A stretch of 64,000 nucleotides of DNA, from contig OX485806.1 in the NCBI GenBank assembly GCA_950295325.1, positions 2,420,001-2,484,000 of the forward strand, given 5' to 3'. This DNA is from Polytrichum commune. Its lineage: Eukaryota; Streptophyta; Polytrichopsida; Polytrichales; Polytrichaceae. Below are positions 7,348 through 23,393 of the stretch, piece after piece (the first letter of the stretch is position 1; each line of letters begins with the position of its first letter). Both the position numbers and the translations under genes were made by a program. The notes below the pieces were generated by a model. The model saw nothing but the letters and a program-made list of their open reading frames with translations. It did no database searches and was not told the origin of the DNA.

Positions 7348-9572
7348 ATTGCGTCCTCAGATGATATGGTACTGAACATGCTTGTACATTAAACGGCACC
7401 ATTTTTTGGACCAGAATTTAGTTGCTTCAGCCGCATCTATCAAGTCTCTCTCTTTGTTACGGATGTTCTAAACGTCTTTGCTTGTCCAGCTACCTGCTGG
7501 ACTGGAATCTAGAAGCAAGGGTAGTCAGTATAGTGGAGGTCAGTCTGATTTATGCTCTTGGCAGTGAAGAATCAGCGTGTATGATGTTGGAGGTGCATCT
7601 CAAACCCTCACTCTTTTAGACTGCCAGTGACCTCTTCTGCTTAGTTTTTTGGGACTCGGGTACAGGAGGGAACTCTTAACACTCTTTACTTTAGGCAGTT
7701 GTTTGGCCTCTCATTCACTGGATTGGGAGCCTTGGGCCTTGAAAAGCAGAGTCTGATCCTAATCACTTGCATACACAAATGTCTGGAGTAAAAGGTGATA
7801 TGTTTCTGTTACTTGATGTATGATGTTTCTTCAATGTAAATGTATCTAGTATCAATATGTGTGCTGTACACACATCTAGTACTCATGTTTTTCTCATGTT
7901 GGACGGGCTTGTGGACTAATTTCCTTGGAACCTTGGAATATGATGTGTAACACACAAATAGATGATAGCTTGCAGTCACTTCCTAAAACTGACTGTAAAT
8001 TAATTTTATCTGCATCGTTGTTGCAAAATTAAAATTAGATAAACGTTTCTGCAGTATTAATTTGAGAATTTTCTATACATAATGAGTGTTGGAATCATCT
8101 ACACCTAAACCCTGTGCATGTCATGATCAGAGAGTCCTTTGGAACCTGACCTACTTGATTATGTTGTAGCAAGAATCAGTTGAACGTAGAATCTGATGAA
8201 GTGAGGTGTACAGTAAAGTGGATTTGACAAACCAGGTTACCCTCTTTCTCCAGCGATTTCAATGCTCACAGAAAGTTGTTCGCACATCATATCGTCTGCA
8301 GCTCTGTTGTCCCTTCACTTGCGAGGTAAATGAGGTCAAGTACTCTCGTTGCATGAACATCAGGGACTATTGCTAACAGCTTTTTGGACTATTGTCATCA
8401 TAGTAGATTACTGTGGCGTCATCATAGCATCATCATGTTATTCTTACAAAGTGATTGATGGGGCAACTGTAATTTGTCACTGTTGGAACAGACTCGATTA
8501 AGCTGCTAGCAATAATTGTTATTAAGCTGCTTGACACTTTCTACATAACATACACAAACATACCATGTAATAAAGAAGGCTTCTGTTATGAAGGAGGGCA
8601 TGTTGGATTATATCTGCTTGAGCTAAGTTATGTTAAGGTGTTATTATGGTCAATACTTCGATTCCCACATTAGGCACTCGATTCTGAGAGTTGGTCCTCA
8701 TATTGAGGATGTCAAACATTTCCCACTCTGAAAAATTGCCAGAAATTATTGTTTGTGTCTTATCTTCATTTTTGATCGCCTTCCTTCTTCCCCCACATTT
8801 GCATGGGAGGGATTTCTTTTGAGAACCGTAGGTACTTAGTGTGTGGAATGAAAACTAGCTTCTCGTTAGATTCAACCAAACAAAATGAACCACCCTACAA
8901 GGCAATGCAAACAGATGGCCAAAAAGACATTTGTATCATTTCTTGATTCGAGTGTCATCCTTGTGGAGGGGCCATGCCTAATCCTCTCTATCAATTACTT
9001 CCTCTCCGCATGGACTATAACTTCTCTGTGGCTTCCATCAACAATGCTGGTGCCATGCTTGTCCCTCTAATCCTCAACTTCACAGGTAAGGTACGGGAGC
9101 CTAGAATGGATACTTTTCTTAAACGATTATCAATCCGCGAGACTCCTAGATTCCCATCAAAAACAGAACAGGCTTGGTAAATTAGATTCTAGAAGAATTT
9201 GACCACTTCTACAATCAGTGTTTGTTCTTGGCTCATCAATATTATGTAGCGGTTCCACAACTGCTTCAATTTTGGATCAATTTTCGCATCGCTTGTGCAA
9301 ATCATTCCTTTACATGCATAGCGTTTTACTCAATGTTAGACAGTAACTATAGTTGGTAGAGGTAAGAAACATTCCAGCTGCAAATGAAGTCTTGTTGAAT
9401 CAGCATCCTATCCCAAATGAGGAAAGGAAAGGAAAACAGAATTGGGAAAAAAAATGTACTACATCTAAGCTTGCCAAACCTCTTCCTGGCGTTCGAATCT
9501 TGAAGCATTACGTCAAGGTATCAATGTTGAATGGAAATAAGTATTTAGTGGTTCAGCACAGGACATCGACTT
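7348..9572. other. SUMO 3' flank and intergenic DNA
   Basis: The first few hundred bases must include the SUMO 3' untranslated region, but no canonical AATAAA was found near the stop codon. Two overlapping short frames around 8885-9180 show no recognisable domain. No other gene was identified up to the tRNA. Confidence 0.45.
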
Positions 9573-9644
9573 GGTCCCGTAGTCTAGTGGTCAGGACATT
9601 GGACTCTGAATCCAGTAACGCGAGTTCAAATCTCGCCGGGACCT
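9573..9644 (+). tRNA. trnQ-CUG: tRNA-Gln (anticodon CUG)
   Basis: A 72-nt intronless cloverleaf. The acceptor stem GGTCCCG pairs with CGGGACC, followed by discriminator T. The D-arm is within TAGTCTAGTGGTCAGGAC (A box). The anticodon stem-loop is TTGGA-CTCTGAA-TCCAG with CTG at its centre, reading CAG codons. The variable loop is TAAC, and the T-arm GCGAG-TTCAAAT-CTCGC supplies the B box. Every stem pairs, allowing G-T, and CCA is not encoded, as in nuclear genes. It lies alone, in the direction of SUMO, and should be transcribed by RNA polymerase III. Confidence 0.96.
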
Positions 9645-11078: not shown

Positions 11079-11804
11079 CCCATGACCATGGGTTTTGGGT
11101 GGGCATGGGTGGGCATGGATGCGATATTATTGTTCATGGGTGGGCATGGGTGGGCATGGTTGCGATATTATTATTCATGGGTGGGCATGGGTTCGATATT
11201 ATAATGGGTGGGCGTGGGCATAACGATGAGTTTGAGGATGAGTTAGAAGAGATTCATGACAATGGGGTTGAGATAGTAGTTGTTAGCAACTTCGACGCAC
11301 GTATGGAGCTTGAGTTCAGTATGTATGGGACATACAAGGTCACTGATCTCGAAAAAAAATGAGATCATTGCAGCGGTGAGCTTAGCATTGCCAATGAATC
11401 GGGATACCACTGCTAAATTCAATATTCTCTTGTGGTGGAAGCTGAAAGGAGCCCCCACATTCCCCATCATGTCGCGCGTGGCACGTTCGGTTTTGAGCAT
11501 CCCTGCATCCAACTCCAAATCGGAGTCAAACTTCTCGGATGCAGGGAATACACTAACCAAGAAGCACTCCGGGCTGAAGCCAGCGATAGTGAACAACCTT
11601 TTATTTGTCCAATCCAACCAAGACTTGGTGTAGGCGGGTAATGCACATTACACAATTTCTTAATACATGGGCGCAATTTGAATAGCATGGGTGGGCATGG
11701 GTGCACACATGTCATGCTATGGGTGGGCATGGGTGGGCATAGGTCGCTGCTGATGGGCATGGTCTGGGTATAGGTGCAATTTAACGGAAAAATGTTGGGC
11801 TCTG
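11020..11804 (+). mobile_element. 785-bp internally deleted hAT transposon
   Basis: The ends CAGAGCCC and GGGCTCTG are perfect 8-bp inverted repeats. An exact 8-bp TSD, CAATGTAG, flanks them at 11012-11019 and 11805-11812, as expected for hAT. Both subterminal zones are packed with CCCATG / CATGGG hexamers: about seven CCATGCC-type copies at 11040-11095, then GGGTGGGCATGG clusters at 11095-11220 and 11685-11765. Between them lies only the C-terminal end of a transposase gene. Dense subterminal motifs are where hAT transposases bind, so this looks like a short derivative that could be moved in trans. The TSD is still perfect, so insertion is fairly recent. Confidence 0.9.
11222..11633 (+). pseudogene. 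hAT transposase C-terminal fragment, frameshifted
   Basis: Two frames on the plus strand together give the end of an hAT transposase. The first (to a stop at 11360) is acidic and ends KVTDLEKK. The second resumes at once with NEIIAAVSLALPM and carries the dimerisation region: LLWWKLKGAP, FPIMSRVARSVLSIPAS, then SESNFSDAGNTLT and LKPAIVNNLLFVQSN, ending at 11633. The WW-K, IPAS and S-FS-AG pattern is the signature of the hAT dimerisation domain. The frames change at a run of eight A (11352-11359), so a homopolymer slip is the likely break. The catalytic core is absent. Confidence 0.85.
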
Positions 11805-22319: not shown

Positions 22320-22627
22320 GCTTCAACTCCCAAGGCAATTGACATGTCTACACATAGAGCTAGAGCAACTCTTCCTACCATATGTTACACATCGTGCAAT
22401 ACTTCCTAAGAGGCACACTTCTTCTATGAGACATTTCGCCAACTCCCTCCTACGTTGTTGTTCAGTCGATGATTCCTATCTCTCAAATCGCAAGACAATT
22501 GACATGTGTACTACACATAGAGCTACTCTTTCTATCAGATGTTATTAAACTTTGTACATTTATCCTAAAAGGCACACTTCTATGAAACTTTTTGCCAACT
22601 CCCACTGCGTTGTTATATCTCAAGTCG
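22320..22627. repeat. tandem duplication overlapping the end of the HEXIM-like CDS
   Basis: Two adjacent copies share, in order, CAATTGACATGT, CACATAGAGCTA, AGGCACACTTCT, GCCAACTCCC, GTTGTT and CTCAA.TCGC. The copies start near 22320 and 22482. The last shared piece in the right copy contains the complement of the stop codon and final codons (22619-22627); its partner is at 22482-22490. The duplication therefore took the last bases of the coding sequence with it. Confidence 0.65.
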
Positions 22628-23393
22628 CTAGGCTCTCGTCAGAGACAGCCTCCGGCTCGGCCTCGTCACCGAGGCGGCGTCGCAGGTGAGAAAGCTCTTG
22701 TGACATGGCCCAAAGGCGGTGTTGCAGACATAAATTCTCTTCCTCCAAGTGCTGGATATGCATCTCTTGATCGGCTACTACCAAGCCATTCTGTCCAAGA
22801 GGAGAATCATCTACATTGAACAACATCTCGAAGCGCTGCAAGCCGTGATCGATTCGTTCTTCCACTTGTTGAACGGAATCAAGAAGAGGATGAGGATGAG
22901 CACAGTGTTCAGTATCAGACTCTCCACAAGATGATAGCCCTGAGTCACGCTCCACGTCATCATCGGCTCGGAGACGGATACATCCATTCATGGAGCCGTA
23001 AGCGTTGACGCCAAGCTCGTTAGCAACCTGACCATTCCCTAGGCTTTTTGTAGGCCACGGAGATGGCGAGATAACAGGTGTAGCAAGAACAGGTGTTTCA
23101 GGTGACAATAATGGCGCGTTTATGCCAAGCTTGCCAGCTCTGATTAGGTAGGAGCTCGTGTTGTAAGGAGCGCGAGGGACTCCTCGGTTCATGAGCGTCT
23201 TCTTATTCTTTCTTCGAGGCTTGTGTCGCCGTGGCAGAAGTGGACGCTTTGCATAACGATGAGGATAAAATCTCGTAGGAACCTGCCACTCTAACGAGGA
23301 GCTCACCCCCCACGGGCTTTGCTGCTTCTTGTTATTACACGGAGGAGGGAGTGGCACCGTCAACCAGTCTCGTTGCTTCGAGGGAAATTCCAT
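22620..23393 (-). CDS. HEXIM-like protein (putative 7SK-dependent P-TEFb inhibitor)
   Basis: An uninterrupted 257-residue frame; the ATG directly follows an in-frame TAG, which fixes the start. Seen: a basic cluster at about 46-65 (RYAKRPLLPRRHKPRRKNKK), then GVPRAPYNTSSYLI at 71-84, an acidic patch at 143-163 (ADDDVERD, ESDTEH), a helical stretch at 170-190 and a leucine-rich coiled coil at about 205-242 (HIQHLEEENLCLQHRL). In animal HEXIM1/2 a basic region binds 7SK RNA, the PYNT motif with a nearby Phe contacts and inhibits CDK9/cyclin T, and a C-terminal coiled coil dimerises. The order here is the same, with Tyr82 in place of the Phe. Animal HEXIM1 is also intronless, but larger (about 360 residues). 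Function is inferred from motif order. It is alone, and transposons lie on both sides. Confidence 0.75.
   Translation of the reverse strand: MEFPSKQRDWLTVPLPPPCNNKKQQSPWGVSSSLEWQVPTRFYPHRYAKRPLLPRRHKPRRKNKKTLMNRGVPRAPYNTSSYLIRAGKLGINAPLLSPETPVLATPVISPSPWPTKSLGNGQVANELGVNAYGSMNGCIRLRADDDVERDSGLSSCGESDTEHCAHPHPLLDSVQQVEERIDHGLQRFEMLFNVDDSPLGQNGLVVADQEMHIQHLEEENLCLQHRLWAMSQELSHLRRRLGDEAEPEAVSDESLAT

Follow-up and report, generated by a model that had tools for sequence, protein, structure and literature searches.

The stretch of DNA that we analyzed, called the window here (64,000 nucleotides; C4:2420001-2484000), contains a protein-coding gene on its minus strand that reads from an ATG at position 23393 to a stop codon ending at 22620, with no intron and no internal stop (Table 1). 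Its coding stretch has a G+C fraction of 0.52, compared with 0.40 for the 64-kb window. The original prediction had described one intronless frame with a basic region, a G-x-P-x-A-P-Y-N-T-x-x-Y-L motif, an acidic patch, and a coiled coil in the order known from HEXIM proteins. All of these parts are present, and in translation residues 71 to 83 read G71-V-P-R-A-P-Y-N-T-S-S-Y-L83, but the acidic stretch is weaker than the word "patch" implies. The basic stretch could possibly serve in nuclear localization or in RNA binding. An AlphaFold2 model made from the single sequence had low confidence over most of its length (mean pLDDT, 50.4; below 50 at 152 of 257 residues) and placed helices at residues 169 to 192 and 207 to 244, with blocks between residues 221 and 240 averaging a pLDDT of 87 to 88. 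When the protein was compared with Pfam, no family matched.

Table 1. Features of the gene, numbered from the first nucleotide of the window
Feature	Extent in protein	Sequence	Position	Strand	Basis
Intronless protein-coding frame (P0001)	257 codons plus stop		22620..23393	-	Translation; four full-length paralogues
Basic stretch	About residues 46-65	RYAKRPLLPRRHKPRRKNKK	23199..23258	-	Translation; paralogues basic at same position
PYNT-like motif	Residues 73-84	PRAPYNTSSYLI	23142..23177	-	Present in all eight members
YGSM block	Residues 131-142	AYGSMNGCIRLR	22968..23003	-	Most conserved 12-residue segment in five long paralogues
Acidic stretch	About residues 144-162		22908..22964	-	Translation; poorly conserved among paralogues
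C-terminal helix/coiled coil	Residues 207-244		22662..22775	-	Single-sequence AlphaFold2 model; five-protein profile

Elsewhere in the window are a tRNA-Gln gene with anticodon ctg (9573-9644, plus strand), a U6 snRNA-like fragment that scored 39.9 bits, under the cut-off of 44 (8925-8998, minus strand), and a hAT transposase C-terminal dimerization region (11397-11618, plus strand; E = 2.5e-19).

The genome comprises 407.8 Mb in 64 contigs, and contigs C1 to C7 (77.9, 70.3, 59.2, 59.1, 52.9, 44.7, and 42.1 Mb) sum to ~406 Mb; we infer a moss with seven chromosomes. That the DNA comes from a plant, as had been proposed, was borne out by four matches to Pfam SAM_LFY, including one LFY gene with YLFDLYEQC. 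One LEAFY gene of the genome reads KNGLDYLFDLYEQC, and we take its Asp to be position 312 and to mark type II. According to PMC6588583, three sites define the LEAFY types, residue 312 among them; type II is described mainly from mosses and once from a liverwort, and both types have been reported for Polytrichum commune.

A family of five long and three short genes

A protein search of the genome found four full-length paralogues (L002, L003, L004, and L005) that are 30 to 36% identical to the window protein in the alignment. Aligned along their whole length, the five long proteins share the start, an RF pair, the PYNT-like motif (P-x-A-P-[FY]-N-x-S-S-[FY]-L-[MI]), the YGSM block (YGSM-x-G-x-I-x-L-R), and the coil, which contains L-E-[DE]-E-N. 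When 246 12-residue segments of the five long proteins were ranked by conservation, the YGSM block came first and the PYNT-like segment second (counted from residue 72) and sixth (from residue 73); the twelve most conserved segments all lay within the YGSM block, the PYNT-like block, or the coil. The high rank of the PYNT-like segment therefore identifies it as a conserved feature of the family and not a chance string. We calculated dN/dS for six of the ten possible long pairs, in all of which synonymous change is high and the values are rough: p2-p3 gave 0.17, p2-p4 0.30, p3-p4 0.31, and p1-p2 0.30, and p1-p5 and p2-p5 were saturated.

Three shorter genes carry the same motif. The frame of L006 has 183 residues and includes PPATPFNSTTFLM, after which comes FDQYGSM; L008, its tandem sister, is 69% identical to L006 (dN/dS for the pair, 0.52); and L011 is a distant relative whose 133-residue frame contains PPMAPFNSTGYLM and FNQYGS and could represent a single exon within a longer gene. 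No coil was seen by eye in these three frames. Across all eight members, the alignment keeps P73, P76, N78, L83, and Y132-G-S, giving the consensus P-x-[AT]-P-[FY]-N-x3-[FY]-L-[MI] plus YGS. With the motif masked, the link between short and long genes was weak (single-comparison E values of 0.0043, 0.0022, and 0.097; 0.0093 for L006 with one further residue masked), so that placing the two groups in one family depends chiefly on the motif and on YGS. We know of no HEXIM counterpart of the YGSM block; some seed-plant proteins may contain a similar block.

Adjoining L002 is a partial tandem duplication (C2:61031398-61031565, minus strand) that repeats its C-terminal 57 residues at 71% identity.

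Similarity to HEXIM

In human HEXIM1, A201 is followed by 202-PYNTTQFLM-210, a segment that binds and inactivates CDK9 according to PMC12901311; PYNT is also treated in PMC10083321, PMC6245832, and PMC3795367. The corresponding segment reads APYNTSSYLI in the window protein, APFNNSSFLM in three members, APFNDSSFLM in one, TPFNSTTFLM in two, and APFNSTGYLM in one. Counterparts of P202, N204, and L209 are found in all eight members, as is an aromatic residue at 203 and at 208. The expectation that PYNT would be kept in relatives thus held for the P, the N, and the aromatic positions and failed for the T, since the counterpart of T205 is T in one member, N in three, D in one, and S in three. Similarly, the substitution of Tyr for the critical Phe describes the window gene but not the family, for six of the eight genes have Phe at the position of Phe208. 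The variable T is a warning: in a reporter test, a HEXIM1-Tat chimera no longer inhibited once its human PYNT had been changed to PNND (PMC6245832), and L005 carries PFND. The relatives may differ in inhibitory strength, or the motif may serve another role.

A six-frame search of the whole genome with the Pfam HEXIM model (PF15313) reported a single place, L006, which carries both the motif and YGSM (20.8 bits; E = 0.099); one candidate passed the first look in this search, and other weak matches may have been missed. Compared as proteins, seven of the eight members matched the model in one register over overlapping profile positions within 12 to 58 of 142, with E values of 3.2e-4 (L006), 0.006 (L011), 0.011 (L004), 0.052 (L008), 0.11 (L002), 0.16 (L003), and 0.94 (L005). 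The HEXIM profile match that had been anticipated is accordingly lacking in the window protein itself and stays below the cut-off of 29 bits in every relative (best, 21.4 bits for L006), yet HEXIM is the family that recurs most often; the coil model DUF3972 recurs in four of eight members. For the three short members Pfam listed no family other than HEXIM; unrelated models matched the long members equally well or better (E = 0.0099, 0.019, 0.028, and 0.03, for example). Because of these unrelated matches, we place weight on the repeated HEXIM register and not on single E values.

Profiles built from the family were scored, by whole sequence unless stated otherwise, against residues 149 to 359 of human HEXIM1, a sequence whose coil agrees with PDB 2gd7 except for two residues at the start and which as a control scored 205.8 bits with Pfam HEXIM. 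The eight-member profile scored 17.6 bits and that of the three short members 13.6 bits, and in neither case did any of 20,000 shuffles score as high; both results are biased, because the short genes were reached via the HEXIM model. The five long proteins scored 4.1 bits (150 of 20,000 shuffles as high), and the four without the window protein scored 3.4 bits (233 of 20,000). Adding L006 to the five long proteins gave 8.0 bits for the whole sequence (15 of 20,000) and 11.2 bits for the best domain (1 of 20,000); with L006 added and the window protein left out, the values were 2.2 bits (743 of 20,000) and 7.8 bits (13 of 20,000), respectively. The long set thus suggests similarity to HEXIM at about the 1% level only, and mainly for this reason and because the strong scores are biased, our confidence is limited.

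Other parts of HEXIM were not matched. The 13 PDB hits (E up to 10) of the five-long-protein profile included no HEXIM chain and were mostly designed and natural coils, the HY5 zipper among them; a sequence search of PDB likewise returned coils and a few unrelated chains. For the HEXIM1 coil (254 to 359), the best HEXIM1 stretch outside the PYNT region reached -1.8 bits. A tie to HEXIM through the coiled coil was therefore rejected, there being no HEXIM chain in the PDB matches. The RNA-binding basic motif of HEXIM is given as KKKHRRR-PS-KKKRHWK in PMC10083321; inspection of the family alignments by eye found a basic stretch but not this motif. With no Pfam match for the window protein and no HEXIM chain among the PDB hits, the proposal that the gene is a HEXIM was not upheld. 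The genes, their conservation, the constraint on them, and the similarity of the motif are matters of observation; the sequences point to a conserved gene family of a probable moss with a HEXIM-like, putatively CDK9-binding segment, one that should not be filed as HEXIM.

Search for 7SK snRNP components

It had also been suggested that 7SK/HEXIM-type control exists in this lineage. A search of the genome with the 7SK model RF00100 at E up to 10 gave no match (19 of 6,140 candidates scored), a threshold at which 3 of 14 control genomes gave sub-cut-off matches. The Pfam model for MePCE/Bin3 (PF06859) matched a single exon at 39.5 bits, against a cut-off of 27, but MePCE/Bin3 is not specific to 7SK, as related enzymes act on other RNAs. 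The xRRM model also had one match in the genome (33.9 bits; cut-off, 22.9), adjoined by an RRM exon that reads like plant genuine La. Assignment of this match to LARP7 is accordingly doubtful.

Promoters of the snRNA type provided a further route. The seed-plant upstream element CCCACATCG occurred with a TATA box at 59 places versus 72 in the reversed control, which is no enrichment. An element of this genome's own (CCCATATNGNYTG), read by eye upstream of the U6 genes L016 to L019 and with variants at L020 and L021, occurred with a TATA box at 619 places versus 5 in the reversed control, a count in which overlapping matches appear twice and some places belong to a dispersed repeat (CCCATATGGGTTGTC...); a narrower form occurred at 78 places versus 1 in the control. 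The upstream element of U6/snRNA genes in this genome differs from that of seed plants. From ~100 of the 619 places and all 78 of the narrower form, 57 loci were chosen, most obvious repeats being skipped. Rfam named 13 of these as U6, U5, U4, U3, U6atac, SRP, and RNase MRP RNAs, and neither Rfam nor inspection by eye recognized a 7SK-like RNA among the 57 loci, which are part of such places in the genome. With no 7SK found among the scored candidates and the chosen loci and an xRRM match that looks more like genuine La, 7SK control in this lineage gained no support.

Several of the 57 loci are of interest in themselves. L034 has an snRNA-type promoter, a long 5' hairpin seen by eye (GGATCTGCATTTGCATCTGGG ... 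CCCAGAATGCAGATGCAGACCC) with one GATC, and no Rfam match; beyond that hairpin with its GATC, nothing of 7SK was seen in it. Grouping by eye placed 28 of the 57 (L022 to L033, L035 to L037, L039, L041 to L045, L064, L066, L067, and L075 to L078) in one multicopy family of about 150 to 260 nt with no Rfam match. Many GGTTACT-like repeats occur in it, AGACTATGG is found in 17 of the 28 loci and the end TAGACTTTT in 18, and eight loci tested had no excess of structure (z = -2.0 to +1.1). The family is possibly a new class of polymerase III RNA or a repeat. L062, L071, and L072 are related small-RNA-like loci (CAGGCTGTGATATGA) with an snRNA-type promoter and no Rfam match and are perhaps C/D snoRNAs.

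Possible functions and comparison with known systems

We hypothesize, tentatively and at somewhat less than even odds, that these plant proteins are nuclear, dimerize, and bear a CDK9-binding segment of the HEXIM type, and that they may regulate CDKC kinases independently of 7SK. The long proteins would be mostly disordered and would dimerize through the C-terminal coiled coil, and the basic stretch would direct them to the nucleus. There, by analogy with HEXIM1, the exposed P-x-A-P-[FY]-N-x3-[FY]-L-[MI] segment would most likely bind the active-site or substrate side of a CDK9-type kinase, the plant CDKC/cyclin T, so that elongation by RNA polymerase II would be restrained or tuned; no 7SK RNA partner would be needed. 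The motif is present in all eight members, dN/dS was 0.17 to 0.31 in four of the six long pairs, the order of basic, PYNT-like, acidic, and coil parts is that of HEXIM, and the eight-member profile found human HEXIM1 at a score that no shuffle equaled. Moreover, the single genomic place reported for Pfam HEXIM is a member of this family, seven of whose members match in one register. Weighing against the hypothesis, all of these matches are below the Pfam cut-off, with none for the window protein and with unrelated models doing as well or better in the long members; sets not picked by HEXIM did poorly against human HEXIM1 (their scores were reached by 150 and 233 of 20,000 shuffles); and the score of L006 is biased, since it was the HEXIM model that led to this gene, whose genome-wide E value is 0.099. 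The motif-masked link between short and long genes is weak, one paralogue has D for T, and the coiled coil is not HEXIM-like.

An alternative is a plant nuclear coiled-coil family of unrelated function in which a conserved 12-residue block resembles PYNT by convergence or chance, a reading that we put close to an even chance and regard as at least as likely as regulation of CDKC. The likeness does not extend beyond one short segment, we know of nothing in HEXIM that corresponds to the family's most conserved block, YGSM..G.I.LR, the coil and basic motif are not those of HEXIM, and the HEXIM-independent sets are only weakly similar. Against this reading stand the shared register of seven members, the model's one reported place in the genome, and the agreeing order of parts. 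Another possibility is that the gene is a genuine HEXIM orthologue acting within a 7SK snRNP, its basic region binding a 7SK-like RNA, its PYNT-like segment inhibiting CDKC, and its coil binding cyclin T; this draws on what favors the CDKC hypothesis and on the MePCE/Bin3 exon. We nevertheless consider it improbable, given the failure of RF00100 to match the genome and of the 57 promoter loci to yield anything 7SK-like (both weak negatives), an xRRM match that looks like genuine La, and a family that lacks KKKHRRR-PS-KKKRHWK and has an unmatched coil. Finally, the window frame might be a copy in decay or have stayed open by chance, as its want of any Pfam match and its standing as the sole long member with PYNT and with Tyr at the Phe208 position would allow, but this is very hard to reconcile with 257 open codons, a start and tail that align to the paralogues, the high G+C, and a p1-p2 dN/dS of 0.30 with synonymous sites near saturation.

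Returning to the CDKC hypothesis, a broader and more speculative extension, which we consider rather unlikely, is that HEXIM-type CDK9 inhibitors predate the plant-animal split and that in land plants a divergent multigene family with the PYNT segment and a dimerizing coil, from which the 7SK-binding part was lost or was always absent, restrains CDKC without 7SK. The HEXIM-like motif hints at a similar brake on expression in plants. A plant family with the CDK9-binding segment would be a candidate for restraining transcription elongation in plants, and through it the age of HEXIM-type control would become testable by kinase assay. Among the titles and abstract openings seen in the open full-text literature, none reports a plant HEXIM or plant 7SK; an earlier report may exist.

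Like animal HEXIM1 and HEXIM2, the window protein has A-P-Y-N-T-x-x-[FY]-L-[MI] after a basic stretch, followed by some acidic residues, poorly conserved among its paralogues, and a C-terminal coil. The family differs in scoring below the Pfam cut-off, in lacking KKKHRRR-PS-KKKRHWK, in the YGSM block, and in the variable T of PYNT among relatives; moreover, its coil is ~38 residues long and does not match the HEXIM 254-359 domain, and no 7SK was found in the genome. The family shares a leucine-rich coil with plant zippers of the bZIP type, HY5 (PDB 2oqq; E = 0.063) for example, but Pfam lists no bZIP domain for it. The "HEXIM-like" sequences that Chivu et al. describe from a few nonanimal eukaryotes (PMC11482795) resemble this family in that they too lie outside animals and often have changed key residues.
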